DNA of 22,210 nucleotides, from positions 1 to 22,210 of IMG/VR virus record IMGVR_UViG_3300036817_000010. One strand, 5' to 3'. The notes beneath the pieces were generated by a model. That model saw nothing but the letters and a program-made list of their open reading frames with translations, was not told where the DNA came from and made no database searches. This document shows positions 2,460 through 22,016 of the stretch, one piece after another. Position numbers and translations under genes: made by a program. The stretch is from a virus. Numbering within the stretch: position 1 is the first letter of the stretch; the number at the start of each line of letters is the position of its first letter.

Positions 2460-2620
2460 GCGACGAAGACGAACTCATTCTTGATTGTTACCGCCTCGCT
2501 CGTTGGTATCATGTCAGTCCGGATGTGTTTTTGGCCATGCCGTTCAGCGACGTTCGCATTCATATGACGCGCAGTGCCGTGCTTAACCGCAGGCAGCAAC
2601 CAGTGAGCGATGACGACTAA
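2432..2620 (+). CDS. Frameshift extension of tail assembly chaperone (long form, gpG-T style)
   Basis: Between the chaperone stop and the tape measure start, the -1 frame stays open and ends in TAA at 2618-2620, overlapping the tape measure ATG by one base. It encodes about 62 residues beginning FSARSTGLVGDEDELILDCY and including RLARWYHVSPDVFLAMPFSD. This segment looks like a helical chaperone extension, not noise. It has no convincing start codon or ribosome site of its own: the only in-frame ATG (2315) lies inside the chaperone gene and gives an unlikely N-terminus. The best reading is a -1 programmed frameshift giving a fusion of about 206 residues, as known for lambda G-GT, P2 E-E' and Mu-like phages. 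A TTG at 2453 as independent start is the weaker alternative. Confidence 0.75.
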   Translation, partial: FSARSTGLVGDEDELILDCYRLARWYHVSPDVFLAMPFSDVRIHMTRSAVLNRRQQPVSDDD

Positions 2621-5244
2621 TGCCTTCTGAACAGGAAGAACTAAAACTTATCGTTACGCTGGTCGACAATGCGTCGCCGGGTCTCGACAAGATCATCGAA
2701 AAATCAAAGGAGCTAGGTGGCCCGCAAGTCAAAGAAGCGCACGAGAAAATGCGGCGTGAGACCGAATCGCTAAACAAGGCGTTCAAGGAAATCGCTGGTG
2801 GATTTGGCGAAGCCTTCAAGGCGCTTGGTGAGTTTCGAGGCGGTCTTATTTCTGGTGTTGGCGGCTTGGCTATATTCGGCATAGAGATGACCAAGCAGAT
2901 CGGCGAACTGAAAAAGTGGGCCGAAGAAATGCGCGGTATTAGTCAGGCTGCGAAAGCTATCGGTGTCGATCCTGCTTCGATGAAGAACATCATCGCTCAG
3001 TTTGAAGCGGTCGGTGTCAGCGCCGAGCAGACCAAAGCAAATCTTGAGAAGATGGCTGGCGCGGTTGCCGATCTCAGTCGCGTCGATAGTCCGTTGCGTC
3101 GTAGTTTGATGCATATGGCTGGGGCTGACCCGGAATCCAGACGTGCGATGGATCAGTTCTTGACGCGGTTTGCGCGCGCGAAGACAGAACAGGAGCGGTA
3201 TAACATAGTTTCCGAAGCCGGTGAGAAGGTAAGGCAGCACGCAATCGAACAAGAAATTGCGAGAGGAGCAACGCGAGACCAAGCGCGGATTGAAGCCACA
3301 AAGCGTCAGACCGATTTTGAGTCCAGCTTCTGGGACAAGTCGATGCTGGCGAAAAAACGTCTTGCGGAAATGGACGCGGCTGACCGACAAACTTTAAATG
3401 AGCGCATCGCTAAGGGGAATGAATTTGCTGATATTACTGGCGACATCGCGTCGGAATGGTCTGACATTGTAGATGAACTGAAAGCGCCGTTTCTCGATCC
3501 CGCGATTGCTGCGGCGAACAAGTTGTTGGGCATATTTAAGCAAATTCACGAGGAGACGGCCCGCGCCAACAAGATTGATAAGGAGCACCCCGCGCCCGAA
3601 GGCTTCTTGCAAAAACTCAATCCGTGGAATCAACAGAACATCGAGCGCGAGCAGCGCATGCGACATCCCGAAAACTACGATGAAAGTGGTCAGAAGAAAA
3701 CAACGGAGGACAACACCAAGGCAACAAAGGACTTGGACGATTCTACTAAAGCGCTGATTGATGCGCTCAAGCAGGGTTACAATCCGATCAGCTACAAAGG
3801 CGCTGGATTTGATCGTGGCATGGTGCAGAATGCCGCGTACACGACGGGCGGCGGCGGTGCTTATGGCGCTGGCGCAGATCGCGGTTATGGCGCGTTCGGC
3901 GGGGGTCGTGGTGGTGGTGGTGGTGGTGGTGGCGGCGGCCCGTATGGCAGTCACGTCGGCCCCGGCACGGGTGCGGGCGCGGGCGATACTCCCGCAGTAG
4001 GCGGCGGCAACGCTACTGGCAATCGCAGCGACATGAGCGTTCCTGCCGCGATCCGCTACAATAATCCCGGCGCGCAATGGCCATCTGCAGAGTCAAAGCA
4101 GTTTGGAATGACCGACGTTGGTGTCATCGGCGGCGGCAACAAGATCGCAGGCTTCCCGACTGCAGTACATGGTCTCGCGTCGAATATGGCTTTGCTGGCG
4201 CGGAAGTACGTCGGCATGACAGTTGGCTCAGCCATTGGCAAGTGGAGCGGCGGCGGTCGTGGTTCGGTCCCCGGCTTTCGCGGCGATCAGGTGATCACAG
4301 AGGAGATGGCGAAAGACCCGAAGTTCATGCTGCCGTTCTTTCAGCAAATGCAGAAGGCAGAGGCTGGCAAAGAATTTATGACACCGGAGCAGCTGCAACA
4401 GGGCTTCGATATGTATATGTCGGGTAGTGCGAAGGCATATGCCGAACAGAACCCCGGCAAAACAATTCTCGGCGCGGGAAGTAGCAGCAACACCGCTGGC
4501 CCAGGCACTGGCAAGGGAGCAGGCGACACGCCTGTGGGCGGCGGCGGCTACGGCGGTAAGTACACGCCGGGTGCCGATCTCTCCAATGTCAATCAGCGGC
4601 TGGTCGAGGCGATCAAAGGCGGTGCCAGCTATCTGCCGGAAGGCTATACGGTGAAGCCGACATCAGGCTTTCGCGGCGGCACCATGCAGAGCTACCACGG
4701 CAAACACGAAGCTGTTGATGTTGAAATCTACGATCCACATGGGCGCAGGATCACCAATCGCGGTGATGATCCAGAGGCGGTCGCTATCTATGGAAGATAT
4801 GCCCAAGGTGTGAAGACGTGGACGAGCAAGAACGATCCTAAACTAGGGCCTCAACTGGGTTGGGGTGGCGCATTCGGGACTCAGTTGGGCGGTGGTGGTG
4901 TCCCCGATCTGATGCACTTCGATCTGGGCGGCAGTCGCGGTCGTATGCGTCCAGAGCGACAGATCGGTAAGCTGCCGCTGTTGCCAGATGCCCCGGCGAC
5001 GACTGCCGCTGATCGTTTCAAGGATTGGCCTGATCGTCAATTGGAAGGTGCCCGTAAGGATATCGACAAGTCGCAATCCAGCGTGGGCAAGGTCGAAGCC
5101 ACCGGCAAGCTCCGCGTGGATGTGAATGGACCGAAGGGTACCAAGGTCGACGCGCAAGGCACCGGCCCGTTCAAGGATGTTGAGATCAATCGTCAGACAC
5201 AGATGGAGCCTGCGAAGAAAGGGCCTGAGACGCTATCGATATGA
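2620..5244 (+). CDS. Tail tape measure protein with two embedded hydrolase-like domains
   Basis: This 874-residue protein sits where Mu gp42, the tail-length ruler, lies. Residues 1-110 are helical and charged with a short hydrophobic stretch near 75-90 (GGLISGVGGLAIFGIEM); residues up to about 370 are largely helical, as in tape measures. A glycine-rich linker (about 405-465) leads to a domain at about 471-607 starting SDMSVPAAIRYNNPGA, which resembles PRD1 P5-type virion domains. A second near-copy linker (about 626-643) leads to an M15 peptidase-like domain at about 656-777. There H693, D700 and H766 match the zinc ligands of the HxxGxAxD...(E)xxH pattern; D763 stands where the family usually has Glu. 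Such domains could open peptidoglycan during infection. The ATG overlaps the preceding stop, and the end overlaps the next gene (ATGA). Confidence 0.85.
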   Translation: MPSEQEELKLIVTLVDNASPGLDKIIEKSKELGGPQVKEAHEKMRRETESLNKAFKEIAGGFGEAFKALGEFRGGLISGVGGLAIFGIEMTKQIGELKKWAEEMRGISQAAKAIGVDPASMKNIIAQFEAVGVSAEQTKANLEKMAGAVADLSRVDSPLRRSLMHMAGADPESRRAMDQFLTRFARAKTEQERYNIVSEAGEKVRQHAIEQEIARGATRDQARIEATKRQTDFESSFWDKSMLAKKRLAEMDAADRQTLNERIAKGNEFADITGDIASEWSDIVDELKAPFLDPAIAAANKLLGIFKQIHEETARANKIDKEHPAPEGFLQKLNPWNQQNIEREQRMRHPENYDESGQKKTTEDNTKATKDLDDSTKALIDALKQGYNPISYKGAGFDRGMVQNAAYTTGGGGAYGAGADRGYGAFGGGRGGGGGGGGGGPYGSHVGPGTGAGAGDTPAVGGGNATGNRSDMSVPAAIRYNNPGAQWPSAESKQFGMTDVGVIGGGNKIAGFPTAVHGLASNMALLARKYVGMTVGSAIGKWSGGGRGSVPGFRGDQVITEEMAKDPKFMLPFFQQMQKAEAGKEFMTPEQLQQGFDMYMSGSAKAYAEQNPGKTILGAGSSSNTAGPGTGKGAGDTPVGGGGYGGKYTPGADLSNVNQRLVEAIKGGASYLPEGYTVKPTSGFRGGTMQSYHGKHEAVDVEIYDPHGRRITNRGDDPEAVAIYGRYAQGVKTWTSKNDPKLGPQLGWGGAFGTQLGGGGVPDLMHFDLGGSRGRMRPERQIGKLPLLPDAPATTAADRFKDWPDRQLEGARKDIDKSQSSVGKVEATGKLRVDVNGPKGTKVDAQGTGPFKDVEINRQTQMEPAKKGPETLSI
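3910..3939 (+). repeat. Triplet repeat (GGT)7(GGC)3 in tape measure gene
   Basis: Seven GGT codons followed by three GGC codons encode a run of ten glycines inside a glycine-rich linker. The tract is in frame, so slippage would change linker length by whole residues without breaking the gene. Confidence 0.9.
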
Positions 5245-5822
5245 GCGACATCTTTCTCGTTGGCAAAGGACCGGACGGCTCTCTGCCATCGTGGCGCGAC
5301 GATCTCATGCGTGCGTCGTTCAAAGGTGCAACATTCCATTGCGAATCCAATGCGCGCGAGAGCGGGCGTCGCATCGTCGAACACGAATTTCCCAAAAAGG
5401 AATTGCCTTACGCCGAGGATATGGGGCGTCACGCGCGTGAGTTCAGCATTCGCGGCTATTGCATTGTCTATCAGACTGACGCCGACGATCTCTACCAGCG
5501 CGATTATCGTAAGCCGCGCGACGTGTTGCTCGCTGCGCTTGAAACTGAAGGCGGCGGTGAACTGCAACTGCCGACGCAGACCATACAGAACGTGGTCTGC
5601 TCGAAATATCGGCTCACTGAGGAAGAACGCTTCGGTGGTTATTGCGTATTTGATATGACGTTCTTGGAGCTTGGTCTCGATCCGCTTTATGATCCGGGTC
5701 AAGAGGACACGCAAGCGACGGTCGGGAATGCAGTGCAAGCCATGCGTGATCAGGTACAGCGGACGCTCGCGCCACCTAATCCATCCATTGGCACCGGATT
5801 GCCGGAGACTATTTCTGTATGA
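5241..5822 (+). CDS. DNA circularisation N-terminal domain protein (N-terminal half of Mu gpN)
   Basis: This 193-residue protein matches the N-terminal domain of Mu gpN (DNA_circ_N family), a baseplate/tail protein needed for tail assembly. The recognisable features are the WRDDLMRASFKGATFHCES motif at about residues 16-34, followed by GRRIVEHEFPKKELPYAEDMGR and a FSIRGYCIV strand, and then ALETEGGGELQLP. Mu gpN is a single protein of nearly 500 residues; here the family's C-terminal half is encoded by the next ORF, which overlaps by ATGA. The name 'circularisation' is historical; tail assembly is the better-supported role. It overlaps the tape measure gene by four bases. Confidence 0.88.
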   Translation: MSDIFLVGKGPDGSLPSWRDDLMRASFKGATFHCESNARESGRRIVEHEFPKKELPYAEDMGRHAREFSIRGYCIVYQTDADDLYQRDYRKPRDVLLAALETEGGGELQLPTQTIQNVVCSKYRLTEEERFGGYCVFDMTFLELGLDPLYDPGQEDTQATVGNAVQAMRDQVQRTLAPPNPSIGTGLPETISV

Positions 5823-6487
5823 AACGCGCCGATGCCACCGAGGCTGCACCAATCCTTGACCGGATGCTGGCAGCATTGGTGTCGTTCGTTCCGGCTAAGG
5901 GTCGCACGGGTGTCGATGCGCGTACTGCCATCGGCGATACTCGCGCCAACGCATATAAGCTGTTAATCGATGACGCGTTGGGACCGCCGCTCGATAATTG
6001 TTTCGATCAGGCGCGGCTCGCGGGCGTCACGTGGCAACAAGTCGAGACTGTGCGCGCGCAACTCGATCAGGAGAGTCCGGTCTCACTTGGCGCGGTGCTT
6101 GTTCAGAACGCTGGCGTTCGTCTTTGTTTGGCAACGGAATGTTTCATTCTCGCTGGAATGACATTTATCAGCCGTCAGCAGGTTGACGATACAAAGACTG
6201 CGTTGTTTCAGCCGTTTCAGGATGCCGAGGAAATCGCAGCCAATGAAATGGATCAGATGACGTTTCAATCACTGATCACGCTACATGGTGCGATCACAAA
6301 TCATCTTGTGCAGACGGCGCTGCCGCTACCGCGCATGTTGCAGTACCAATTCTTCGAAGTATTGCCGAGCCTCGTCATGGCGTACAAGTTTTATGACGAC
6401 GCTTCACGTGCCGACGAATTGCGCGACGAAAACAAAGTTGTGCATCCGGCTTTCTGTCCGATGGTCGGTGAGGCGTTGTCGTCGTGA
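5819..6487 (+). CDS. C-terminal half of gpN-like DNA circularisation/tail protein
   Basis: The 222-residue product resembles the C-terminal portion of gpN-family proteins: a helical region in which the late segment LPSLVMAYKFYDDASRADEL (about residues 183-202), followed by VHPAFCP, is the typical family ending. Its start overlaps the stop of the N-terminal half as ATGA, so both halves should be made together by coupled translation and probably assemble into one unit. The frame relation is -1, but the junction (ctgtatga) has no slippery run, so I favour two polypeptides over frameshifting. Together the halves add to about 415 residues. It is followed by a 63-base gap without a gene before the hub gene. 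Confidence 0.78.
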   Translation: MKRADATEAAPILDRMLAALVSFVPAKGRTGVDARTAIGDTRANAYKLLIDDALGPPLDNCFDQARLAGVTWQQVETVRAQLDQESPVSLGAVLVQNAGVRLCLATECFILAGMTFISRQQVDDTKTALFQPFQDAEEIAANEMDQMTFQSLITLHGAITNHLVQTALPLPRMLQYQFFEVLPSLVMAYKFYDDASRADELRDENKVVHPAFCPMVGEALSS

Positions 6488-6550
6488 GCGTGTCGTTTTC
6501 GCGAATGGGGAAGCAGCGTCGATCTACCACCACACCAGCAACGCCGATCC

Positions 6551-7636
6551 ATGCCAAAACCAACTGAGATCGCAACGCTCGAAGTTAACGGGCAGACGTT
6601 TCAGGATTGGGAATTTGTCATGGTCCGTCGTCCTTTTGGTGACTCGTATCACTATTTCCAGTTCAGTGCGGCTGAACGCGATCCGGCTATTGTCAAGCCA
6701 AGCAACAAGCTCGCTGACTGGACTAAGCTGCAGTTCAAGCCGGGAGATCGTTGTACCGTCAAGCTTGCTGGGCAATTGGCGATCACCGGCTTCATCGAGA
6801 CGCGTCAAGTCGCATATGATGCGAACAGTCATGGCGTGATGCTGCTAGGCAAGAGTTACACTGCGAACGCTGCTAAATCGAGTGTCGATAGCAAGACTGG
6901 GAATTTCGATAACAAGACCTTGCCTCAAGCCACGAGTGAAGTGTGGGGACAGTACGGCGTTCCCGTCAAGGTGATCGGTACAATTGACACAACGCCGTTC
7001 GACAAGCTTCAGAACAACAAGGGCGAGTCGTGTTGGGATTTCACCGAGCGCATTGCGCGGGATCGATGTGCGCGATTAGCCGTTGATGCCTTCGGTAGTC
7101 TGTTGCTCGTCGGCGATCACAGCAGTCCCATTGTTGCTGGTTTGGTCGAGGGCAAGAATATCTTGTCCTGTCAGTGCATCATGGATGCCTCGATGGTATT
7201 CGAGCAGTATGACGTTCATGGTAGTTCGCAAGCCAGCGATGATCATAACGGTACGGATGCCAGCGAGCAGCAAGCGACGCGGACTACCAGCATTTCGGGC
7301 GTGTTGCAAAGCAAGCTGATCACTCCGATTGAGGAGTCGGTGAAGTATCAGAACGAAATGGATTTGCGCGCTCAATTCGAGCAGCGAATACACGATGGCA
7401 CGATGATCCAAGCAACCATCACTGTACAAGGATGGCTGCGCGAGGGCATGGTGCTTTGGTCGGAGGGCGAGCATGTTCATGTCTATTCTCCGATGATCCC
7501 GCTCGATCGTGAAATGGCAATCCAGCAAGTCATCTTCATGCAGGACGACAAGCGCGGCAGTGTCACTGTGCTGACGTGCGTCAATCCTGAATTTCTTAAT
7601 TCGCAACAAACTTACGATACGAGCGGGAGTGTTTGA
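6551..7636 (+). CDS. Baseplate hub protein, Mu gpP-like (late control D/GPD type)
   Basis: This 361-residue protein has the organisation of Mu gpP and other GPD-type hub proteins, which form the trimeric ring joining tail tube to spike. An early beta domain with PGDRCTVKLAGQLAITGFIE (about residues 58-77) is followed by a VMLLGKSYTANAAKSS segment, and then KGESCWDFTERIARDRCARL (about 157-176), the typical middle-domain pattern. The C-terminal part carries LREGMVLWSEGEHVHVYSPM, as in the family. I kept the ATG at 6551 because the frame upstream has no other plausible start before a stop at 6485. The ribosome site is weak. Its stop overlaps the spike ATG by one base (TGATG). Confidence 0.87.
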   Translation: MPKPTEIATLEVNGQTFQDWEFVMVRRPFGDSYHYFQFSAAERDPAIVKPSNKLADWTKLQFKPGDRCTVKLAGQLAITGFIETRQVAYDANSHGVMLLGKSYTANAAKSSVDSKTGNFDNKTLPQATSEVWGQYGVPVKVIGTIDTTPFDKLQNNKGESCWDFTERIARDRCARLAVDAFGSLLLVGDHSSPIVAGLVEGKNILSCQCIMDASMVFEQYDVHGSSQASDDHNGTDASEQQATRTTSISGVLQSKLITPIEESVKYQNEMDLRAQFEQRIHDGTMIQATITVQGWLREGMVLWSEGEHVHVYSPMIPLDREMAIQQVIFMQDDKRGSVTVLTCVNPEFLNSQQTYDTSGSV

Positions 7637-8433
7637 TGCACCGATCAACGCCACTCAATAGCGCGCTGCGCGGCTACACATCTGGCGGCGCTCGCGGCGT
7701 AGTCGACCAAGTCGATGACACGAAATTGCTGCAGGAAATGGGCGGCAACTTCATGGTCAACGAAACACGCGACAAGGTCGAGGCTCCGCAGAACTATGGC
7801 TTCACTTCGGTGGTGTTCAATGCCGAGAAAGATGGCATGGGCAAGATCAAGTCGAGCGCAGAGCATTTCACCAGCTTCATGGGTGGCAGCCGTTCATTCC
7901 CTGTAGCGATCATGGATGATCGTCGTCACCGTCTCTACAAATTGCAGCAGGGCGACACCGCGATGTTTCGCGGGCGCGGCGACTTCCAGCAATTCCATAT
8001 GACGCAGAACGGTGGTTTCTGGACCGCACCACAGGACAAGACTGTTCGGATGCAGTTGCTGCAGAAGGACAGCCAAAGCAATTCGACAATGCAAAGCGGC
8101 GGTGGAAGTGGCGGCGGCGGTGGTGGTGCTGGTGCTCAAACGAGGGATGGAAGCGGCGGCGGCTCAAGTGGTAGCGGTGGGCAGCAAGGTCAACAGAAGG
8201 GACAGGAGTCCGTCTATCAAGACGGTCAGAAGTCGCCGATGTTCGTTGACGTGACCAAGGACGCCAGTCGTGTGGGCGGTAACAACGTTTACCTAATGGA
8301 TGGAAACGGTACCATCCTTGTCCACGTCACGGGTGGCAATGTTTATCTCGGTGCTCAGGCTGGAAAAGCGCAATTTGCGAAAGTGGAGACCGAGAGCGGT
8401 CCTTCAGTGAACGTGTATGCGAAGATAGGGTGA
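7636..8433 (+). CDS. Baseplate spike/assembly protein, Mu gp45-like, with glycine-rich insert
   Basis: The 265-residue product resembles Mu gp45 (Phage_Mu_Gp45), which forms the membrane-piercing central spike. The N-terminal GVVDQVDDTKLLQEMGGNF and VEAPQNYGFTSVV segments and the PVAIMDDRRHRLYKLQQGDTAMF region (about 89-111) are typical. Mu gp45 is about 200 residues; most of the excess is a Gly/Ser/Gln-rich insert at about residues 153-191, after which the repetitive beta tail (NVYLMDGNG..., GGNVYLGAQ) resumes. The His-x-His metal-binding tip motif known from some phage spikes is not visible. I chose ATG 7636, which overlaps the hub stop, over the TTG one codon earlier. Confidence 0.85.
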   Translation: MHRSTPLNSALRGYTSGGARGVVDQVDDTKLLQEMGGNFMVNETRDKVEAPQNYGFTSVVFNAEKDGMGKIKSSAEHFTSFMGGSRSFPVAIMDDRRHRLYKLQQGDTAMFRGRGDFQQFHMTQNGGFWTAPQDKTVRMQLLQKDSQSNSTMQSGGGSGGGGGGAGAQTRDGSGGGSSGSGGQQGQQKGQESVYQDGQKSPMFVDVTKDASRVGGNNVYLMDGNGTILVHVTGGNVYLGAQAGKAQFAKVETESGPSVNVYAKIG

Positions 8434-8437
8434 ATGA

Positions 8438-8956
8438 ATGCCAGCTGGGTACAATGTCCCTGACATCCGGCTTGTCCAAAACAACGTCTTCCCGCAATAC
8501 TCCGTCACGGTGGATTGGTCGTTGTTGCCGAACGGTACACTCGATGACAGTCAAGCGCTGGCAACTGCAGTGATCGTTGCACTCGGTACTAACGCGCTGG
8601 CGAGCGTTAACGATGAGTTGCCCGATCCTGATTCCGTTGATCGCATGGGATGGTGGGGTGATCTCGACGCACAATTGATCTGGGGCGGCTGGCCCATAGG
8701 ATCGAAACTGTGGTTGTTGGCTCGCACCAAGATATTGCCAGCATCCGCGCGGCAAGGCTCGACGATGGTGTTGATTGAGAATTATATCCGCAACGCGATC
8801 CAGCCGTTTGTCGATAACAAGATTTGTTCTGGTTTCAATGTGTGGACGACGCGGGTTGATCCGCAGCGCATTGATGCGTTGATCAGGATTTATCGCGGGC
8901 CGTTGCCAGACATTGAACTGCGCTACGCCGTCCTCTGGGACGCCATGCAATCCTAA
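8438..8956 (+). CDS. Mu gp46-like baseplate protein
   Basis: This 172-residue protein matches the GP46 family of Mu-like baseplates, related to T4 gp25-type wedge components. Typical marks are the N-terminal PDIRLVQNN, then DDSQALATAVIVALGTNALA, the tryptophan-rich MGWWGDLDAQLIWGGWPIGS segment at about residues 69-88, and the following SKLWLLARTK. It lies four bases after the spike gene and 15 bases before the baseplate J gene, the standard Mu order. A second ATG at 8434 is in another frame. Confidence 0.9.
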   Translation: MPAGYNVPDIRLVQNNVFPQYSVTVDWSLLPNGTLDDSQALATAVIVALGTNALASVNDELPDPDSVDRMGWWGDLDAQLIWGGWPIGSKLWLLARTKILPASARQGSTMVLIENYIRNAIQPFVDNKICSGFNVWTTRVDPQRIDALIRIYRGPLPDIELRYAVLWDAMQS

Positions 8957-8971
8957 CAGCAAAGTATCGAC

Positions 8972-10090
8972 ATGCCGTGGAACACGCCGACATTGCGCGC
9001 GGTGCGCGAACTTGTGCGCGACGCGGTCAATGCGTCGTTGCCGGGAGCCGATGCCAATGTGCCGAACAGCGTGTTGCGTGTCATGTCGGACAATCAGGGC
9101 GCGCTCTGCCATCTGACACTGCAATATGTTGATTGGTTGTCACTACAGCTGCTGCCCGACACGGCAGAGACGGAGTGGTTAGATCGGCACGGCAACATCT
9201 GGCTGGTCAATGCAGATGGTTCGACCGGCCGCAAAATGGCGACGCTTGCGACTGGTACGGCGCAGTTTCAGGGTCTTGTCGATGGCACGGTGGTTCCGAC
9301 TGGCACACAATTGCAAAGCGGCATTAGTTTCCCGGTCGGTTTTAGTTCGGCGAACAACACGGTTACGTTCGAAACGCTTGAGGACATTACCACATCGGCA
9401 AGCGGGCTAGTCAGCGGCAATATACGTGCGCTTGATGCAGGATCGTTCGGCAATCTGCCGGATGGCTCTGGGCTTTCGATATACCCGACAATCCCCGGCG
9501 TCAGCGGTCTCGCATTTGCGTATGGTCTTACGAACGGCACCGACACCGAAACCGACGATGAACTACGCGCTAGGGTTTTGCAGCGTATTCAAAATCCACC
9601 AATGGGCGGCGATGCTGCTGATTATGTTGCGTGGGCGCTCGCTGTTCCCGGCGTGACGCGTGCTTGGGCTTCGCCGAACGAAATGGGCGTCGGCACTATG
9701 ACGGTGCGATTTCTGATGGATGATCTGCGTGCCTCAGACAATGGCTGGCCGCAACCCAACGACATCATAGCTGTTGCCGATTACGTTGATCAGATGCGGC
9801 CGGTAACAGTCAAGGACTGTTACGTGGTTGCTCCAATCAAACAGTTTCTCAATATCACTATTGCTAATTTGGTGCCCGACACCACCGAAGCGCAGGCCGA
9901 GATTGAGCAGAGCCTGCAGAACATGCTGTTCGTCAAGGCGTCTCCGGGTCAGACTATTTTTGCCGCGTGGGTCAGCTACGCGATCATGAATGCGCCAAGC
10001 GTTCAATCGTTTCAGCTGGTGACGGATACAGATTTTGTGATGCCTGCGCCGGGTTACATGGCCGTGCTCGAAACGATCCTTTATGAGTGA
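8972..10090 (+). CDS. Baseplate J-like protein, Mu gp47
   Basis: The 372-residue protein is a baseplate J family wedge protein, which links the hub to the peripheral baseplate and fibres. Family signatures are the N-terminal PTLRAVRELVRDAVNA, then LLPDTAETEWLDRHGNIWLV at about residues 62-81, a TETDDELRARVLQRIQNPP segment followed by MGGDAADYVAWALAVPGVTRAW at about 207-228, and the VRFLMDD strand. Length agrees with Mu gp47. Its end overlaps the gp48-like gene by eight bases. Confidence 0.93.
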   Translation: MPWNTPTLRAVRELVRDAVNASLPGADANVPNSVLRVMSDNQGALCHLTLQYVDWLSLQLLPDTAETEWLDRHGNIWLVNADGSTGRKMATLATGTAQFQGLVDGTVVPTGTQLQSGISFPVGFSSANNTVTFETLEDITTSASGLVSGNIRALDAGSFGNLPDGSGLSIYPTIPGVSGLAFAYGLTNGTDTETDDELRARVLQRIQNPPMGGDAADYVAWALAVPGVTRAWASPNEMGVGTMTVRFLMDDLRASDNGWPQPNDIIAVADYVDQMRPVTVKDCYVVAPIKQFLNITIANLVPDTTEAQAEIEQSLQNMLFVKASPGQTIFAAWVSYAIMNAPSVQSFQLVTDTDFVMPAPGYMAVLETILYE

Positions 10091-12509: not shown

Positions 12510-12863
12510 ATGGCGATTGTCACCATCACGGTCGAGAACGACGCCGACTTCTATCGCGGGTTCGTCTACCAGACGACATCTGGTGCCCCGATTGACCTGA
12601 CCGGGTCAACGATGCGCATGATGCTGCGCAGGAATGCTACCGATGTGACTGCGTTGCTCAGTCTTTCGAGCGATGTCGGCGAAGGCATCGCTATTACGTC
12701 GGCGACTGGCGGGACCTTCACTGTACTGATAACGCAAGCGCAGCTAGAGCAATTGCCGCTTGACACCTATGCGCACTCGCTGATCATGACCAACATCAGC
12801 AGCGGATTGCAGACAAGGATATGGAACGGAACGCTCACTAATCTTGCAGGGCCGTCGCGATGA
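12510..12863 (+). CDS. Small beta-rich tail protein (Ig-like, fibre-associated)
   Basis: The 117-residue protein shows the pattern of small immunoglobulin-like phage tail proteins: [19 protein letters not shown] at about residues 28-46, then [20 protein letters not shown] at about 70-89 and a final WNGTLTNL strand. Such proteins lie beside collagen-like fibres in many alphaproteobacterial prophages and may form the collar that binds the fibre, by analogy with BppU N-terminal domains. It overlaps the collagen-fibre gene by four bases. The family is recognised by pattern only. Confidence 0.65.
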
Positions 12864-14299
12864 GTGACATTCAAATCACCGCCGACCCGAACAACGATGT
12901 CGTCATCGTCAATGACGATTACGATACCGTGGTCGTTCAGACCGCCGATCCGGGGCCACCCGGCATTCAGGGACCAGTTGGTCCGCAAGGCCCGATAGGT
13001 CCGCAAGGCCCGCAGGGTTTGACCGGACAGAAGGGAGATACGGGAAACACAGGCGCAATTGGTCCGCAGGGACCGCAAGGCGTACCCGGATCGACCGGGC
13101 CAGCGGGGCCAGTGGGACCGCAAGGTCCACAGGGACCGGCAGGTATTGGCGACATGCTCGCCGCCAACAACCTCTCGGAATTGACCAACAAAATCACAGC
13201 ACGACAGAACATCTATGCCGCGCCGTTCGATGCGCTGGCCTACAACGGTATGCAGACCAACGGCTCGTGCGACATAGATCAGGCCCACAGCGGTGCTGCC
13301 ATTACAGGCATATCTAACACTGAGACATATATTATCGATGGTTTTTCTGTAAACTTTAATGGCGTCCCTGTTGGAAGTGCCCAGCAAGTATCGGATGCCC
13401 CTCCCGGTCTTATCAGTTCGCTAAAGCTGTCGGTAACCACCGCACAACCGTCCATTGCATCTGGCGACGTTGTTTATATCATCAGTAAAATTGAAGGATA
13501 TAGAACGGCCCGCCCCGCATTCGGGACATCGACTGCTCAACCTGTTTCATTTGGATTTTGGGTCAAGGCCAATAGGCCCGGAACTTATTCCGGAGCTATT
13601 GTTAATGGTGCCAATAGCAGATCATACGCATTCTCCTTCACGATAAATTCGTCCCTGACTTGGGAATTTAAGACAGTCACGATCCCCGGCGATATATCGG
13701 GAACGTGGTTGAATACGAATGGAGTGGGCCTGCGCCTGTATATTTGTATGGCGGCGGGAAGCAATTTCGTCGGCACGGCTAATGTTTGGGTAGGCACAAA
13801 CCAACTTGGCGTAACGGGCACCATTAACGGTGTGGCCGCGACCACTGACACGTTCCAAATAACTGGCGTCGTCATCCTCCCCGGTATCGAACTTCCGTCT
13901 GCGGCTCGCGCGCCGTTCATCATGCGGCCATTCGATCAAGAGTTGGTGCTTTGTCGGAGATATTTTCAATCTACATATGAAATCGGAACGCTTCTTGGAA
14001 CAGCTACGGATGTTGGTGCTGTTGAATTTTCGTGGGGGGCTGGTGCAGCAGCCGGTGCGATTGCGGGTGGAACTGCGTCGTTTAGTTCTGTGATGAGATC
14101 AACTCCAACCGTTAGCACTTATGATCTTAATGGCACGTCAGGACTTGTTTGCGCCACTCTAAGTGCGGGAGGCGTTGTAACAAATGGTGTTGCACTTAAT
14201 GAGGCGACCGCGAGTACCAAGAGCCTTAGAGCCCGCATTTATAATATAGCGGGAGCTTGTGGAATGCAGTTCCAGTACGCCGTTGATGCGAGGCTCTAA
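12860..14299 (+). CDS. Collagen-repeat tail fibre, probable receptor-binding protein
   Basis: The 479-residue protein has a 31-residue N-terminal segment followed by 21 uninterrupted Gly-X-Y triplets (residues 32-94), rich in GPQ and GPP, predicted to form a collagen-like triple helix. A conserved neck follows ([20 protein letters not shown] and [14 protein letters not shown]), typical of tail fibre trimers. The C-terminal 350 residues are beta-rich, with [19 protein letters not shown] resembling carbohydrate-binding jelly-roll modules. That part is visibly richer in A and T than the collagen-coding part, which points to exchange of the receptor-binding end. Gene order fits a trimeric fibre used for host recognition. 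Confidence 0.8.
12953..13141 (+). repeat. Collagen-like (Gly-X-Y)21 repeat region
   Basis: Twenty-one consecutive nine-base units coding Gly-X-Y, many reading GGNCCNCAN (Gly-Pro-Gln). No triplet is interrupted. Near-repeated DNA such as GGTCCGCAAGGCCCG recurs, so recombination or slippage by whole units is possible. Confidence 0.92.
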
Positions 14300-14581: not shown

Positions 14582-14779
14582 ATGATCCTCAAGGTCGCAA
14601 ACACCATCGTGCATGATTTGCGCAGCCAGCCGCTGTTGCTTGCGCTCGTTGTCATCAACGCGATGTTTTTCGCTGGGAGCGTCTACACACTGCACCACGT
14701 CAGCAAATCGGCCGAACGTCGGGACGCAGTTCTCGCCACCATGGCTGAACGCTGCAATATCAGGGAGCCGAAGCAATGA
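14582..14779 (+). CDS. Single-TM small membrane protein, holin candidate
   Basis: This 65-residue protein has one hydrophobic segment at about residues 18-35 (PLLLALVVINAMFFAGSVYT), short charged ends and no cleavable signal pattern. Its stop overlaps the ATG of the endolysin gene (ATGA), the usual place for a holin or other lysis membrane protein. One TM segment would make it a class III-type holin or a spanin-like partner; no family can be named. The reading frame starts four bases after the previous gene. Confidence 0.6.
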   Translation: MILKVANTIVHDLRSQPLLLALVVINAMFFAGSVYTLHHVSKSAERRDAVLATMAERCNIREPKQ

Positions 14780-15897
14780 ACATTGTGATCTCGTCTGGTC
14801 ATGGCCTGAAGGTGCGCGGCGCAAGCGGATATCTGGACGAAGTCGATGAAGCGCGGCGCGTGGTCGAGCAAGTCGCCGATCTGCTGCTCAAGTCTGGTCT
14901 GGGTGTGAAGACTTTCCATGACGATATCTCGACCACGCAGAGCCAGAATCTCGAAACGATTGTGGACTTCCACAATGAACAGGATCGTGATCTCGATGTC
15001 TCAGTGCATTTCAATGCCTATGAGACGACGACAAAGCCAATGGGCTGTGAAGTGCTTTATGTCACTCAAGATGGATTGGCCGCGACGCTGTCGGAAGCTA
15101 TTTCGAATGCTGGGGACTTGATCGACCGTGGACCGAAGTATCGCAGTGATCTATATTTTCTTAACAACACCGAAGAACCGGCGATCCTGATCGAGACGTG
15201 TTTCGTCGATAGCTCCACTGATGCCGAACTATATCGCAACAAGTTCGATGAGATTTGCGCAGCTATCGCATCGGTGCTTTCAGGACGTGAGATCGTTGAC
15301 GTACCGCCGACAGAACCGGAGCCTGAGCCGCCACCGGAATTGAGTGAGAACAATCGTGTGGACATTCTTGGCGCGGTCGAGGGTGATGTAACCATCATCA
15401 TTAATGGACAACGTGTTACGGGTGCGGCGCGCTGTCTTAACATCGTCAATCTGAAAATCGCGATGCACGGCGATGTCACCGTGTCGATCAACGGACAAGA
15501 CTTTCACAACACGCCAAGCATTCCTTCGAACCAGAGCGACATCACCGCGACCGTGTTTGGCGGTGAAAGCGATTACAACACAAGTGCCTATGATCCGAAC
15601 AAGGTGCTCAACGACACCGATCTCTATATTGCGTTGCCGGATCGCATTGAAGGCGAGCGACCGCAAGTCCGGGTCTACAACTGGGTGACCGGCATCAGCG
15701 CGATTGCCAGCATCGAGGATGTTGGACCTTGGAACACCGATGATCCGTACTGGACAACGGGCGAGCGTCCGCAGGCCGAGAGCGGCACCGACATGGACGG
15801 GGTCGAGACCAATGGTGCAGGCATCGACCTGTCACCCGCGCTGGCAAACGCACTGGGCATCGACGGCATGGGCACTGTCGATTGGGAGTTCGTATAA
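14776..15897 (+). CDS. Endolysin: N-acetylmuramoyl-L-alanine amidase with C-terminal double-psi barrel
   Basis: The 373-residue protein has an Amidase_3 domain at residues 1-172, which cuts the bond between muramic acid and L-alanine in peptidoglycan. The zinc and catalytic residues fit H9 (SSGHG), E22, H78 (VSVHFNA) and E140 (ILIETCFVD). A proline- and glutamate-rich linker (about 176-190) leads to two short repeats, DVTIIINGQ and DVTVSINGQ, at about 204-241. Residues 256-373 resemble a DPBB/RlpA-type domain: ITATVFGGESDYNTSAYDPN, IEDVGPWN with D315, and TNGAGIDLSPAL with D351. No signal peptide is seen, so exit probably depends on the neighbouring membrane protein. Placed at the end of the late genes as a lysis enzyme. 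Confidence 0.88.
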   Translation: MNIVISSGHGLKVRGASGYLDEVDEARRVVEQVADLLLKSGLGVKTFHDDISTTQSQNLETIVDFHNEQDRDLDVSVHFNAYETTTKPMGCEVLYVTQDGLAATLSEAISNAGDLIDRGPKYRSDLYFLNNTEEPAILIETCFVDSSTDAELYRNKFDEICAAIASVLSGREIVDVPPTEPEPEPPPELSENNRVDILGAVEGDVTIIINGQRVTGAARCLNIVNLKIAMHGDVTVSINGQDFHNTPSIPSNQSDITATVFGGESDYNTSAYDPNKVLNDTDLYIALPDRIEGERPQVRVYNWVTGISAIASIEDVGPWNTDDPYWTTGERPQAESGTDMDGVETNGAGIDLSPALANALGIDGMGTVDWEFV

Positions 15898-16508: not shown

Positions 16509-16536
16509 GCCCCTGCTTTACGCAGGGGCTTTTTTT
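16509..16536 (+). terminator. Strong intrinsic terminator ending the rightward operon
   Basis: An 8-bp GC-rich stem (GCCCCTGC 16509-16516 with GCAGGGGC 16522-16529) with a five-base loop is followed by seven T residues (16530-16536). It ends rightward transcription at the junction of the convergent operons. The stop codon of the leftward gene (TTA at 16518-16520 on this strand) lies in the hairpin loop. Read leftward there is no T-tract after the stem, so it should work in one direction only. Confidence 0.9.
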
Positions 16537-17168
16537 GTGCCTGCAGTTTCGAACGCTTCGCACAGCGCTTTTGTCACTGCGATCCGGCGCGCGTTGCGGA
16601 TACGGAAGTCTTCCGATTTACGCCATTGCAATTCCGGTCGATCGGCCCATAGCACGCTGACGGTACGGTCGTCGTACTCATGCGATGCACCGGAGATCAC
16701 TGACATGTTGCGCCATGTTGGACTGTCGTCTTTCGGCTCATAGAATGATACTGCCATCATGCCGGTGATGCAGTCGCGCCAGTGCGAGCGCTTGGCCTGA
16801 TACATAGTCGGGTCGAGCAACAGATTGAGCGACGGTACCGTGACGACTGCATGGCCGTTGAACTTGTCTGGTCTGTCTGGATCGCCGGGAACACCGAGAC
16901 CTAACGACCATATCTCATTGCCATCTGGATCGTTGGCATAGATGAACAGCGTGCAGCCGCGCACGGTGGCGTCGGTGTAACCGATGGCGACAAGAAAGTC
17001 CCTGATCGCCAGCGACGTGAACAGGCATTTGTCTTTTGATGAGCCGACGCCGAATTGTTCATAGGTCTGGTGGGTGTGTTCGGCGATCACCGCCAGCGCT
17101 TTCCAGATGCGCGGCGGGAGATCGCCCGGTTCGAACCCGATGGTCATGTCGCCGAATTGCGGGTTCAC
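16518..17168 (-). CDS. Unknown protein with Cys-His-Asp pattern (transglutaminase/papain-like fold?)
   Basis: I choose GTG 17168 (216 residues, starting VNPQFGD), because it overlaps the upstream stop as GTGA, the junction type used in this operon; an in-frame ATG at 17219 would give 233 residues but overlap the upstream gene by 55 bases. With the GTG start, C48 lies at the start of a helix (KDKCLFTSLAIRDFL), H106 before a strand (FNGHAVVTV) and D119 in LLLDPT. This order and spacing resemble the catalytic triad of transglutaminase-like and papain-fold enzymes. No known family is recognised, so the activity is inference. It is the last gene of the leftward operon and its stop lies in the terminator loop of the opposing operon. 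Confidence 0.75.
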   Translation of the reverse strand: MNPQFGDMTIGFEPGDLPPRIWKALAVIAEHTHQTYEQFGVGSSKDKCLFTSLAIRDFLVAIGYTDATVRGCTLFIYANDPDGNEIWSLGLGVPGDPDRPDKFNGHAVVTVPSLNLLLDPTMYQAKRSHWRDCITGMMAVSFYEPKDDSPTWRNMSVISGASHEYDDRTVSVLWADRPELQWRKSEDFRIRNARRIAVTKALCEAFETAGTKKAPA

Positions 17169-17461
17169 CGACGTGTCAGCTTGCTGAACGTGTCCTGTCC
17201 ATCCGCTGAAGCCGCCCATGCGTCACTCTCTTCATCGCTGGCGTCAAAGTCGCCGTTGATCACACGCGAACGCAACGCCATGATCTGATCTTTTTTGTCT
17301 TGGCTGTTCTGGATCGCGATGCCGAGATCGGTGATTAGTTGCATTTCTGGCAATGCAATCGGTGACAGGTAGTCGTGATAGTATCCGCTACGCGCCTTGA
17401 AGCTCATGTCGATCAATCCGACCGTTAGCAGTGCATCGGCGAGCATGTCTTTGGTGTGCAT
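17165..17461 (-). CDS. Hypothetical small protein
   Basis: The 98-residue product starts at ATG 17461 (MHTKDMLADALLTVGLIDMS), chosen because GAAGGAAG precedes it at a good distance; the frame is open further upstream but that part overlaps the next gene. The first half is mixed helical; residues 76-98 are acidic (DASDEESDAWAASADGQD) and then basic. I do not recognise a family. Confidence 0.65.
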   Translation of the reverse strand: MHTKDMLADALLTVGLIDMSFKARSGYYHDYLSPIALPEMQLITDLGIAIQNSQDKKDQIMALRSRVINGDFDASDEESDAWAASADGQDTFSKLTRR

Positions 17462-17474
17462 GGTTGTCTTCCTT

Positions 17475-17696
17475 CTACCAGTCGCGGTCTTTACTGCGTC
17501 GACCGAGTTGCCATTGTCCCTTGGTGTTGCTCCACTCGGCTTCAAAATATCCCTTCACATCTGTGCCGAGATATTTTTGCGTTATTCGATCCAGCACTTG
17601 AAACGTCGTGTGCTTGTGGTGCCGGTCATAGATCATCGGCAGTACGTTCGGGTCGTTGCTGACCAGCGGTATCTGGACTTTGACGATTTCGCTCAT
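17475..17696 (-). CDS. Hypothetical small protein
   Basis: This 73-residue protein starts at ATG 17696 (MSEIVKVQIPLVSNDPNVLP). A GGAGAA site lies 12 bases before it, inside the end of the upstream gene, and the gap to that gene's stop is four bases; ATGs at 17714 and 17717 would add an unlikely N-terminus. A MIYDRHHKHTTFQ segment and an aromatic/charged end (YFEAEWSNTKGQW) are notable. No family recognised. Confidence 0.68.
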   Translation of the reverse strand: MSEIVKVQIPLVSNDPNVLPMIYDRHHKHTTFQVLDRITQKYLGTDVKGYFEAEWSNTKGQWQLGRRSKDRDW

Positions 17697-17700
17697 GGTC

Positions 17701-17943
17701 TCACAGTTCTCCATCATCGAGTGAATGATAGCCGCGCTCGGTCAACCATTGCTTCGATGCCTTACGCACTTCAAGCGGCAGCGACACAACGCTGGTGATG
17801 CTCTTGTGCATCGTCAACTCAGCCGCCGCCCGGCTAGATGGCACCGGCAAGCGGTGCTTGCGCATGAAGACGATCAGCGCATCGGGGTCGCGCTGCATCA
17901 GCATCGCATTGCGTTTGCGGTTATAGCGTTCGATCTCGCTCAT
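17701..17943 (-). CDS. Hypothetical small basic protein
   Basis: The 80-residue protein is basic and helical at its start (MSEIERYNRKRNAMLMQRDP) and ends in an acidic tail (SLDDGEL). The central stretch around RKHRLPVPSSRAAAELTMHK looks like a helix-turn-helix in outline, but I would not call it one. It lies four bases upstream of the next small gene. Confidence 0.65.
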   Translation of the reverse strand: MSEIERYNRKRNAMLMQRDPDALIVFMRKHRLPVPSSRAAAELTMHKSITSVVSLPLEVRKASKQWLTERGYHSLDDGEL

Positions 17944-17955
17944 TGGCCGTTATCG

Positions 17956-18222
17956 TCAGGCTCTCCGTCGATCCATGCGACGAACCACGGTACCGGGAAG
18001 CCAGCCCGCTAGATAGGCAGGCGCTTGATACGATCTGGCATAGGTAGTGACCATAACGACTGATTGATCGTTCTCGTCATATGGGTTGTCCCTCAGATAC
18101 GCGTACAGGTCGGCTAGGCAGCTATCACAGATGAAGATGTGTTGGTTCAGTCGCCAGATGCCACGCGCGCAGTGGCACTTGATGCAGTCGCTTTCGTTGG
18201 TCTTGCGCGCCTCGAATCTCAT
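17956..18222 (-). CDS. Small protein with CxxC...CxxC zinc-finger-like motif
   Basis: I start at ATG 18222 (MRFEARKTNESDCIKCHCAR), which overlaps the stop of the 380-residue upstream gene as ATGA; an earlier ATG at 18288 would lie inside that gene. The 88-residue product has CIKCHC at about residues 13-18 and CDSC at about 32-35, which fits a treble-clef or zinc-ribbon site. The C-terminal end is basic (RRMDRRR). Such small zinc proteins are common in phage early operons, often as regulators or DNA-linked factors, but no role can be assigned. Confidence 0.7.
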   Translation of the reverse strand: MRFEARKTNESDCIKCHCARGIWRLNQHIFICDSCLADLYAYLRDNPYDENDQSVVMVTTYARSYQAPAYLAGWLPGTVVRRMDRRRA

Positions 18223-19361
18223 GACACGACGTACTCCTTTCGCTCGACTTCCTTGCCGGGCAAGCCGCGATAGAATGGTGACCACCAATAGACGCCGGAC
18301 TTCCTAACCTTGAAGTGACCGCGCACGCTGTGAAATCCCGCCTCTTCGCGGGTCATGATCCCGGCGCGGAAGGCGCGCGCCTGTGCCTGCGACAGCCGCA
18401 GATGCGTCGTGCGATATGGCAGGAACGTCGGCCGCTTCATCTTGGCGCGCGATTTGTTGAGCGCTGTAAGATCAACGTCGCGATGTTCGATGGGCGAATT
18501 GCGCGAGTTCATCATAGCGATGATGGTCTCGATCATCGGGCTTTCGCCTTCGATGTCTTTTTCCCAACTCTGCGAAACGACATTGTCGAGAAAGCTTTTC
18601 AGTAGCTTGTCATTCGACAACGCCTGTCCGGCGCACCAGCCAACGAAGCCGGTTGCGTGTGGGCTGACGAACGGCATGGCGTGGTTGCCGAGTTCGCGCA
18701 GCGCTTCACGCTCGCTTGCTTGCTTGGCATGCTTGGGCCAATCATGAAACCAAGATCGCTCCATCCATCTCCGAACGTCTTCGTCGGACATCTGTTTCGA
18801 GTATCGTGTCGTCAACAGCAAATCCATCAGTGCAACGGGCTTGTGTCGCTCGGCGTCGGTGGCGTAGCGCTTGCGCAACATGGTCATGGCGTCGAGCGAA
18901 ACGACGGCATCCTTTTCCCAGTTGAACAGCGTGCCGAGCGGACTGATGCTGACCGGGGAATAGAGCGTGTCTCCGACGCGTTCCGGCCGCAGTTTGTGCA
19001 CCCACGCAAACGTCATGATGCCGCGCTGTCCGGTTTCGTCAGTCTCGACCAGTGCGCCTTGCTTCAGCGGATCAGGCGCAACGGCCACATCGCGCCGCTT
19101 GTCGGGCGGTATCCAGCCAGTTCGCGTCGAGGCACCGCCGCGCCATTCGAGCCACATCTTTCGATAGGGCGCGCGGATAAGCGGTAGCGTATTAAGCAGT
19201 GTGGTCGGCTTTGATTGCGTCAGTCGATAGGCAGCGATGGTGACATCGTCGGAAAGCTCGAACCGCTCGGCTTGTCGAATTGATGCGGCCATGCTGGTGA
19301 ACATGCCTTCGATGTCATTGGTCTTGCCGCATTCGGCGAGGATGTGGTCGGATAGTCTCAT
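18219..19361 (-). CDS. Large hypothetical protein of the leftward operon
   Basis: This 380-residue protein is the longest leftward gene and I do not recognise a characterised family. The N-terminal segment ELSDDVTIAAYRLTQSKPTT is followed by PLIRAPYRKMWLEWRG; the middle has VSISPLGTLFNWEKDA and a tryptophan-rich RWMERSWFHDWPKHAK; the C-terminal end has VRGHFKVRKSGVYWWSPFYR and a basic tail. The length and aromatic C-terminus resemble unnamed proteins of rhizobial prophages (recalled, not checked). There is no signal peptide or TM segment. GAAGGAAA lies at the right distance before the ATG. It overlaps genes on both sides by four bases, so it is co-translated with them. Confidence 0.75.
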   Translation of the reverse strand: MRLSDHILAECGKTNDIEGMFTSMAASIRQAERFELSDDVTIAAYRLTQSKPTTLLNTLPLIRAPYRKMWLEWRGGASTRTGWIPPDKRRDVAVAPDPLKQGALVETDETGQRGIMTFAWVHKLRPERVGDTLYSPVSISPLGTLFNWEKDAVVSLDAMTMLRKRYATDAERHKPVALMDLLLTTRYSKQMSDEDVRRWMERSWFHDWPKHAKQASEREALRELGNHAMPFVSPHATGFVGWCAGQALSNDKLLKSFLDNVVSQSWEKDIEGESPMIETIIAMMNSRNSPIEHRDVDLTALNKSRAKMKRPTFLPYRTTHLRLSQAQARAFRAGIMTREEAGFHSVRGHFKVRKSGVYWWSPFYRGLPGKEVERKEYVVS

Positions 19362-19588
19362 CGTTTCCTTCGCTCGTTGGTTTTAGGTTTTGTTGACTTG
19401 ATGATTTTCACCACGGTGCAGTTGTATGGTCCGATAGTGAAGTGTCCACCGATCTTTGGCACGCGCGTACCCTCATAGAAATTGACGGGGATCGTATCGG
19501 CTTGTCCATCTATGCGCGCCAACACCTTGCCGATTACTTTCTGTTTCCGTGCCGACTGTTGAAATGGTCGTCTTGGTGTCTTTGCCAT
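19358..19588 (-). CDS. Small basic hypothetical protein
   Basis: The 76-residue protein is strongly basic at both ends (MAKTPRRPFQQSARKQK and KSTKPKTNERRKR), with a beta-rich centre (IGGHFTIGPYNCTVVKI). Nucleic-acid binding is plausible from charge only. It begins two bases after the upstream stop and overlaps the 380-residue gene as ATGA. Confidence 0.65.
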   Translation of the reverse strand: MAKTPRRPFQQSARKQKVIGKVLARIDGQADTIPVNFYEGTRVPKIGGHFTIGPYNCTVVKIIKSTKPKTNERRKR

Positions 19589-19590
19589 GA

Positions 19591-19848
19591 TCAGCAGTGT
19601 TCTTCGATCATTAGTTTGATCATGTCGCTGACGCGGTCGGCCAGCACTTGTTGTTCATTTTTGTTTTTTGTCATCTTCTCAATGATGTCGAAGCAGAAGC
19701 CCGCGTAGGTTTCCAGCATCGCCTCGTGATTGTCGCAGAATTTAAGCAGAGCGAGAAAGCACTCGCCCACGATTTTTTCCATTTCGTAGGTGAGGTATTC
19801 GCCCTTATCGGCGTCGTCGTCTAAATGATCGCTAATCATGTAAACCAT
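19591..19848 (-). CDS. Small acidic helical protein
   Basis: The 85-residue protein is acidic and helical, with DHLDDDADKGEYLTYEMEK at the start and C-terminal helices (VLADRVSDMIKLMIEEHC). The start is ATG 19848, with AGGGA about ten bases upstream; M4 at 19839 is a possible alternative. It overlaps the small membrane protein gene by 17 bases. No family recognised. Confidence 0.65.
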   Translation of the reverse strand: MVYMISDHLDDDADKGEYLTYEMEKIVGECFLALLKFCDNHEAMLETYAGFCFDIIEKMTKNKNEQQVLADRVSDMIKLMIEEHC

Positions 19849-19975
19849 CTATCTGTTCCCTGTCATAGCCGCGTCTGATGTCTTCGATCTTGCCAGCACT
19901 TATCCAACTGCACACAAGAAAGCCGACTGGCGCACCGAGCAGGATGCCAGCAGCAAACATACCGAATAGCCACAT
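19832..19975 (-). CDS. Very small single-TM membrane protein (47 residues)
   Basis: Reading the reverse strand from ATG at 19975 gives a 47-residue ORF starting MWLFGMFAAGILLGAPVGFL, a clear hydrophobic segment at about residues 3-26 (through LVCSWI). A charged cytoplasmic-type tail with KIEDIRRGYDREQ follows, ending in TAG at 19832. GGAGGG lies seven bases before the ATG, one of the best ribosome sites of the operon. It overlaps the next gene. Such tiny membrane proteins are frequent in phage accessory operons; function unknown. Confidence 0.68.
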   Translation of the reverse strand: MWLFGMFAAGILLGAPVGFLVCSWISAGKIEDIRRGYDREQIDGLHD

Positions 19976-20032
19976 GACTGGCCCTCCGTTTGCTCGCGCG
20001 TTACAGCACGTTCGATCCAGAGCATATAGCGC

Positions 20033-20173
20033 TCACGCACCAGCCACGAGACCGCAGGCAAAACTTCGTGGTGGAGGAGCGCAGAGGATTGCGGCAACCG
20101 CGACCTTGTCGCCACTGTCGCGGCGTTCCAGCACGCGGTGAACCTGTGGCGTGACCAGTGGCATCGTGATCAT
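20033..20173 (-). CDS. Possible small ORF (46 residues)
   Basis: The reverse strand between the membrane protein and the next upstream gene holds a 46-residue ORF (MITMPLVTPQVHRVLERRDS to a TGA at 20033). Its ATG overlaps the upstream stop as ATGA, the junction type common in this operon. A competing GTG-started frame (20115 down to 19900) runs into the membrane protein gene. I cannot decide whether one, both or a decayed gene is present, so confidence is low. Confidence 0.4.
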   Translation of the reverse strand: MITMPLVTPQVHRVLERRDSGDKVAVAAILCAPPPRSFACGLVAGA

Positions 20174-20376
20174 GGCAGCGTGCCTTCTGCGTCCTTGCGA
20201 AGTTGCTTCGCCATATCCTCAAGCAAATCGGGTAACGCTATCAGAGTCGACAAATCGGTCTGGCACGCAAATCCATTGCCACGATTGCCACCGAGAACAA
20301 TTAGGATCACTTGGCCGCCAATTTCTTCGTGCACTATGGTACAGATGTCATCGTACTTGCCGGGTCCGAAAGTCAT
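20170..20376 (-). CDS. Hypothetical small protein
   Basis: This 68-residue protein (MTFGPGKYDDICTIVHEEIG) has a beta-strand-like core VILIVLGGNRGNGFACQT and a helical end (LPDLLEDMAKQLRKDAEG). Similar unnamed small proteins with this 'GG..G.GF' core occur in rhizobial and other phage genomes (recalled). The start overlaps the upstream stop as ATGA. Confidence 0.72.
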   Translation of the reverse strand: MTFGPGKYDDICTIVHEEIGGQVILIVLGGNRGNGFACQTDLSTLIALPDLLEDMAKQLRKDAEGTLP

Positions 20377-20615
20377 GGCTGCACTCCCAGCCGCTTGGCA
20401 ATTCGATTTGCTGTTGGATTGTTCAGCGCATCACGGAAGTCGGCTGGGTTGAGCTTGTCGGAGTATTTCTGTGTTAGTGTCAACATTTCCAAGCTCAGTT
20501 GTCTTGACTCGGCAATGTCGCCAGCGACGATGGCTTTCTCTGTTGCGATCAACAGCGGTTCAAGCTCGTCGATGAATTGCTGTTTTATGGTAATGTGAGG
20601 TTCATCATGTTTCAT
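20373..20615 (-). CDS. Hypothetical small helical protein
   Basis: I start at ATG 20615 (MKHDEPHITIKQQFIDELEP), which overlaps the upstream stop as ATGA, not at the earlier in-frame ATG at 20633, which lies inside that gene. The 80-residue product is helical and ends FRDALNNPTANRIAKRLGVQ. No family recognised. Confidence 0.7.
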   Translation of the reverse strand: MKHDEPHITIKQQFIDELEPLLIATEKAIVAGDIAESRQLSLEMLTLTQKYSDKLNPADFRDALNNPTANRIAKRLGVQP

Positions 20616-21099: not shown

Positions 21100-21129
21100 T
21101 GCGGTCCCCTCCGCGTTGGATTGGCAACT

Positions 21130-21161
21130 GATCAGGATTACGAACGCTCATGATCCTGATC
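21130..21161. promoter_or_regulatory. 9-bp perfect inverted repeat, operator or hairpin candidate
   Basis: GATCAGGAT (21130-21138) and ATCCTGATC (21153-21161) form a perfect inverted repeat with a 14-base spacer in the only real gap in this part of the leftward operon. It lies between the Xre-type regulator gene and the next gene. There is no T-tract, so it is not a terminator. An operator for one of the nearby HTH proteins or an mRNA hairpin are the two obvious readings. Confidence 0.45.
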
Positions 21162-21171
21162 GGGTTGATTG

Positions 21172-22013: not shown

Positions 22014-22016
22014 CAA

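Follow-up and report, generated by a model that had tools for sequence, protein, structure and literature searches.

Whether a single tape measure protein (TMP) can carry two different peptidoglycan-cutting enzymes, and what part the two would play for a virus of thin-walled bacteria, is the question raised by an ORF of 874 amino acids (2620..5244, plus strand) in a viral record. We refer to the whole stretch of 22.2 kb that was analysed as the window. The first-pass annotation of the window had proposed two different hydrolase-like domains within this one TMP, a proposal borne out by profile homology, predicted folds and relatives, as set out below.

Tail module and host

The window encodes a Mu-like contractile tail module in which a sheath gene (45-1610; phrog_165, E 2e-151) is followed by a tail assembly chaperone (TAC; 2001-2459; PF10109), the 874-residue ORF, a DNA_circ_N baseplate gene (5241-5822), a gpP/gp44-like baseplate gene (6551-7636) and a Mu gp45 baseplate gene (7633-8433). 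Because the ORF is positioned between the tail chaperone and the baseplate genes, we assigned it as the TMP on gene order and on the PHROG and Pfam matches of its neighbours; its own PHROG matches, to phrog_2013 ('lytic tail protein') and phrog_2276 (TMP), are weak. The gpN/DNA-circularisation baseplate protein is represented by two ORFs, 5241-5822 and 5819-6487, which match the two halves of phrog_184 (4-153 and 261-401, respectively), and the gene is thus split in the window.

Further along are a putative tail fibre gene with a collagen-like triple-helix stretch (12860-14299; PF01391, E 1.5e-8) and an endolysin gene (14776-15897; Amidase_3, E 1.3e-24). The C-terminal ~125 residues of the endolysin have no match in Pfam or the PDB; by eye they resemble what we take to be an RlpA-like double-psi barrel (DVGPWN..). 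The minus strand from 16518 to 22208 holds a block of genes, most of them without a recognised match, and within it lies an HTH_3 regulator (21172-21651), a possible repressor of lysogeny.

The sheath is nearest to those of Hyphomicrobiales prophages (54%), with Shigella phage SfI at 44%. Relatives of the first of the two TMP domains, the NNPG domain, in named genomes are nearly all from Hyphomicrobiales, and relatives of the modules occur in phages of Rhizobium, Mesorhizobium, Sinorhizobium, Ochrobactrum and Sulfitobacter; a sheath match was absent in the three NNPG-bearing genomes tested. The host is likely alphaproteobacterial and Gram-negative.

The NNPG domain

Neither domain of the TMP gave a match in single-sequence searches of Pfam, PHROGs and the PDB (phmmer). 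We gathered relatives of the NNPG domain (aa 470-606; 4027..4437, plus strand) from IMG/VR, phages and genomes, obtaining 44-45 relatives and 48-49 distinct copies, and 36-38 relatives of the M15-like domain, among them TMPs of named Rhizobium phages. Given that the relatives align, the folds are confident, the NNPG domain has profile homology to Enc34, relatives of the M15-like domain match Pfam M15 and dN is well under dS, both domains stand far above chance.

Profile-profile comparison (hhalign) of the NNPG domain with the Enc34-family alignment (PHA02564) gave 98.2% and an E-value of 4.3e-14, against 0.15% for an unrelated control in the same comparison, and placed E581 (4360..4362, plus strand) on the catalytic Glu131 of Enc34 and W542 (4243..4245, plus strand) on its Trp79. 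Seven residues are invariant across the 48-49 distinct copies (R479, N482, P483, G518, Y530, W542 in 49/49 and E581 in 48/48), and E581 is the only acidic residue among them. The AlphaFold model (pLDDT 95, pTM 0.90), for which the input alignments were made without rows from annotated phage records, has the Enc34 endolysin 7q47 as its best solved structure in Foldseek (E 3.1e-5, prob 1.00, TM 0.64). An endolysin PHROG was matched by 14 of 45 relatives, and the viral models matched include lysozyme and internal virion proteins. By its profile and its predicted fold, the domain belongs to the Enc34-type (PHA02564) lysozyme-like family; PF18013 was considered as its identity and rejected. The first-pass annotation had recognised an NNPG-type domain, correctly located, but had named neither the family nor the catalytic residue.

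The Enc34 domain degrades the peptidoglycan of permeabilised Gram-negative cells, and its catalytic signature consists of Glu131, Trp79 and Tyr95 (Cernooka et al., PMC8943055). In the window the segment holding Tyr95 is replaced by a shorter VPG[FY] loop, a subtype shared by 28 of the 49 copies, and the aromatic residue of the PG[FY] motif is kept in 27 of these 28 short forms, just as the Tyr is kept in the long forms. F553 (4276..4278, plus strand) is the corresponding residue of the window and a candidate equivalent of Tyr95. The NNPG relatives (e.g. L017, L095, L112-L118) thus fall into two forms: the short form is found mostly within tape measures, and in the long form the Tyr lies nine residues past the Trp, with many standalone proteins.

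Both TMP domains evolve under purifying selection. For the NNPG domain pN was 0.16-0.21 and pS 0.63-0.80; comparison with L069 gave a dN of 0.23 and a dS of 1.37, synonymous changes being saturated in the other comparisons. For the M15-like domain compared with L018, dN was 0.16 and dS 1.86.

The Enc34-type domain also occurs in two orders within TMPs. A prophage TMP (L183, aa 575-720) has the Enc34-type core followed by FTPAQRQQLLNAMQRHEGW, with the catalytic-Glu helix last, while a TMP with an M15-like domain (L030, aa 575-690, locus about 4560-4958) has the equivalent YSPAQRTALLDAMQKHEGFFPG ahead of the core, with the catalytic-Glu helix first. The two cores are identical at 56 of 79 positions and the Glu-helix blocks at 13 of 22 (maximum of 7 in 10,000 shuffles), and the Glu-first order is present in ten further IMG/VR contigs (L185-L191, L193-L195). 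As judged from these alignments, the pair represents a natural circular permutation of the domain. The Enc34 structure paper inferred a permutation relative to GH73/GH23 from structure; if true, the L030/L183 permutation would supply sequence-level intermediates for it.

The M15-like domain

The predicted model (A5; pLDDT 86) of the second domain (aa 651-788; 4570..4983, plus strand) has LysECD7 (8q2g) as its best structural match in Foldseek (prob 1.00, E 1.7e-3), a moderate one with a TM of 0.50, followed by Ply500 (2vo9) in third and LysB4 (6akv) in fifth place. Structure prediction had been suggested in the first-pass annotation as a check on both folds, and both agree with it. The first two predicted zinc ligands, H693 and D700 (4696..4719, plus strand), lie in SYHGKHEAVD, a variant of the SxHxxGxAxD motif in which the motif Gly, found at position 696 in 39 of 43 relatives, is His in the window; the predicted catalytic Asp and third ligand form D763-L-M-H766 (4906..4917, plus strand). 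These four residues correspond to H62, D69, D114 and H117 of LysECD7, with identical H-x6-D and D-x-x-H spacings, and in LysECD7 zinc is bound by H62, D69 and H117 while D114 is catalytic (PMC11267749). The loops flanking D763 and H766 are of low confidence in the model (pLDDT 53-59), and the geometry of the zinc site is a predicted one.

Among relatives H693 is conserved in 41/43, D700 in 43/43 and D763 and H766 each in 42/42. Because some of the M15-like loci had been gathered by a D-x-MHF pattern, we checked five prophage copies found by profile only, and all five keep the H/D/D/H set. The positions and residues given in the first-pass annotation, and its reading of three of them as zinc ligands in an M15-like domain, were therefore correct, and its check of ligand conservation in relatives came out in its favour. 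It had also taken D763 to stand in place of a needed Glu, which left activity in doubt; since M15 enzymes of the L-Ala-D-Glu type have Asp there (D114 in LysECD7) and the residue is conserved in relatives, an Asp is what is expected at this position, and we rejected the idea of an inactivating change.

Pfam M15_4 was matched by 6 of 9 relatives with E allowed up to 10 (best 0.0024), and VanY by two; the window domain itself had no Pfam M15 match and did not reach the curated cut-off. The closest solved chains by sequence profile are 9flh and 9fln ('LysM domain-containing protein', E 0.002), which cover the first motif only. From motif and model, we regard the domain as M15/LAS-like, most likely of the L-Ala-D-Glu type, and as a predicted zinc metallopeptidase.

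Independent inheritance of tape measure parts

The two domains lie between an N-terminal scaffold (aa 1-370; 2620..3729, plus strand) and a C-terminal cap (aa 820-874; 5077..5241, plus strand) that is common to TMPs with different enzymes. The scaffold is ~84% identical to that of L001 up to residue 451, beyond which L001 has a different module, and 26-36% identical to those of TMPs with other enzymes. L018 has 31% identity in the scaffold, 80% in the M15-like domain and 61% in the cap, with a PF18013 lysozyme replacing the NNPG domain, and L068 and L069 share the NNPG domain at ~70% and have no M15-like domain. The cap is also present in five TMPs of Hyphomicrobiales prophages, each of which has one module, either PF18013-like or lysozyme-like. 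Modules, scaffold and cap are thus inherited independently.

A 55-nt direct repeat flanks the NNPG module: copy 1 (3958..4012, plus strand; aa 447-465) encodes GPGTGAGAGDTP.. and copy 2 (4498..4552, plus strand; aa 627-645) encodes GPGTGKGAGDTP.., the two being 73% identical, spaced by 540 and both encoding GPGTGxGAGDTP. This motif occurs once, ahead of the module, in L001, L018 and L106, and the linker repeat may possibly serve as a recombination site for module exchange.

Pairing of modules across relatives

We found 31 two-module ORFs among the relatives, with modules called by one profile each and checked against Pfam and NCBIfam where possible, and every one combines a glycan-type with a peptide-type module. 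They fall into seven pair types: NNPG with M15 (the window, L030, L088, L092 and L108); M15 with PF18013 phage tail lysozyme, another lysozyme-like module or a SleB-like module; and NNPG with CHAP/TIGR02594, an L,D-transpeptidase-like or an NlpC-like module, where the L,D-transpeptidase-like, SleB-like and lysozyme-like labels are motifs read by eye. The sampling was conditioned on the presence of NNPG or M15, and TMP status is proven for part of the 31. Were modules from the same pool paired at random, all-mixed pairing would have a probability of 4.6e-9 over the 31 ORFs and of 0.037 when these are collapsed to the seven types; because the signal is weak at seven types and depends on the module labels, we treat the pairing rule as a hypothesis.

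L089 has two neighbouring ORFs, 3357-7292 (NNPG and CHAP) and 7243-9123 (SleB-like and M15), each with a glycan-type and a peptide-type module. The NNPG partner in L003 (aa 779-920), L083 (aa 756-895) and L085 (aa 208-344) carries an H...GC motif like that of L,D-transpeptidases and tlde1; it had no library match, and we take this identity as a lead only.

The first-pass annotation had called two such domains in one TMP uncommon, which is true in part: a 2017 review lists Gram-positive cases only (PMC5380687), and among prophage TMPs in which a module was detected, the nearest five have just one each; the 31 two-module ORFs speak against it. More tentatively, and with rather less than even confidence, we suggest that the TMPs of Gram-negative phages form a combinatorial platform, with a fixed scaffold and cap, recombination at linker repeats, a rule of one glycan cutter with one peptide cutter, and a permuted Enc34-type lysozyme.

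Proposed function and alternatives

We consider it probable that the TMP, a ruler of tail length, carries close to its C-terminus a cassette of two blades that cut peptidoglycan, and we infer from the above that the domains are catalytic, which bonds they cut and that they act at entry. The glycan backbone would be the target of the Enc34-type domain, which through E581 and W542 would most likely act as a glycosidase of the N-acetylglucosaminidase-like or lysozyme-like kind. For the M15-like zinc domain, with H693, D700, H766 and the catalytic D763, the target would be the stem peptide, and the bond cleaved would most likely be that joining L-Ala to D-Glu. Upon contraction and DNA delivery the TMP would exit the tube, placing its C-terminal part in the periplasm, where the two blades would breach the thin wall locally. 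The modules, set between the conserved scaffold and cap and joined by the repeated glycine-rich linker, could be swapped between phages in a manner that keeps each glycan cutter paired with a peptide cutter.

On the other hand, only one blade might work, the NNPG or the M15-like domain being a degenerate wall-binding remnant. The lack of the Tyr95 loop in the short NNPG form, the change of G696 to His in the M15-like domain and the one detected module of the nearest prophage TMPs are in keeping with this; against it, E581, W542 and the H/D/D/H set are invariant or nearly so across divergent relatives, selection on both domains is strongly purifying, and all but one of the short forms keep the aromatic. 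We therefore regard a single working blade as considerably less probable than two.

Still less probable, in our estimate, is a role in virion assembly (e.g. wall trimming around assembling tails) or late lysis rather than entry. The sequence is compatible with such a role, and Enc34-type domains are also found in endolysins and head proteins; however, the phage has its separate Amidase_3 endolysin, TMPs are internal to the tail, and in the cases studied entry is the step at which virion-associated lysins act (PMC6116005, PMC6023083). The richness of the linkers in glycine would also suit non-enzymatic spacers or tail folding units, but conservation is focused on the catalytic positions, and related TMPs substitute other wall-degrading families, PF18013 phage tail lysozyme and CHAP/TIGR02594, making this a very improbable reading.

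Relation to known systems and significance

The two-blade cassette has counterparts of several kinds. The NNPG domain is like that of the Enc34 endolysin (7q47) in fold, in its R-x-NNPG start and in the positions of the catalytic Glu and Trp, while differing in being embedded in a TMP, in its short loop at the Tyr95 region and in lacking the C-terminal transmembrane part; virion proteins, K1F-type gp16 among them, have Enc34-type domains as well. The M15-like domain has its best structural matches in LysECD7, Ply500 and LysB4 (MEROPS M15C), with which it shares H-x6-D, D-x-x-H and the catalytic Asp; here too the window domain is TMP-embedded, with SxHxxHxAxD in place of SxHxxGxAxD and similarity under curated cut-offs. 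The same M15-like domain is present in the tape measures of the Rhizobium phages L338C and RHph_I4, which also have Gram-negative hosts, but these are large phages with linear genomes, whose tail genes (M, L, K, I, J) are lambda-like, and the module profiles detected no second module in their tape measures.

Glycan- and peptide-cutting domains are combined in CwlP (YomI) of SP-beta, a large virion protein, probably of the tail (PMC5380687), though in a 252 kDa protein with other domain families and a Gram-positive host, and as a 'pair of scissors' of lytic transglycosylase and endopeptidase in the diffocin hub-hydrolase CD1368 (PMC10996793), likewise part of a contractile machine, though there the enzymes are of other families, sit on the baseplate hub and have a Gram-positive target. 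We found no description of an NNPG and M15 pair, or of Enc34-type domains in TMPs, in the open-access literature. The two-enzyme tape measure is thus well supported as one of a known general kind whose pairing and context are new; the enzyme families are known, and their pairing and interchangeability in viruses of thin-walled bacteria have been little described.

The two-lytic-domain virion lysins in the 2017 review all come from phages of Gram-positive bacteria, and wall thickness was suggested as the reason (PMC5380687). A glycan and peptide pair that recurs in tails from Alphaproteobacteria, whose walls are thin, would argue against wall thickness as the cause, and would make matched pairs of enzymes available from nature. 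Two uncharacterised families borne by TMPs also gain residues that can be tested, and a lysozyme fold gains permutants of natural origin.
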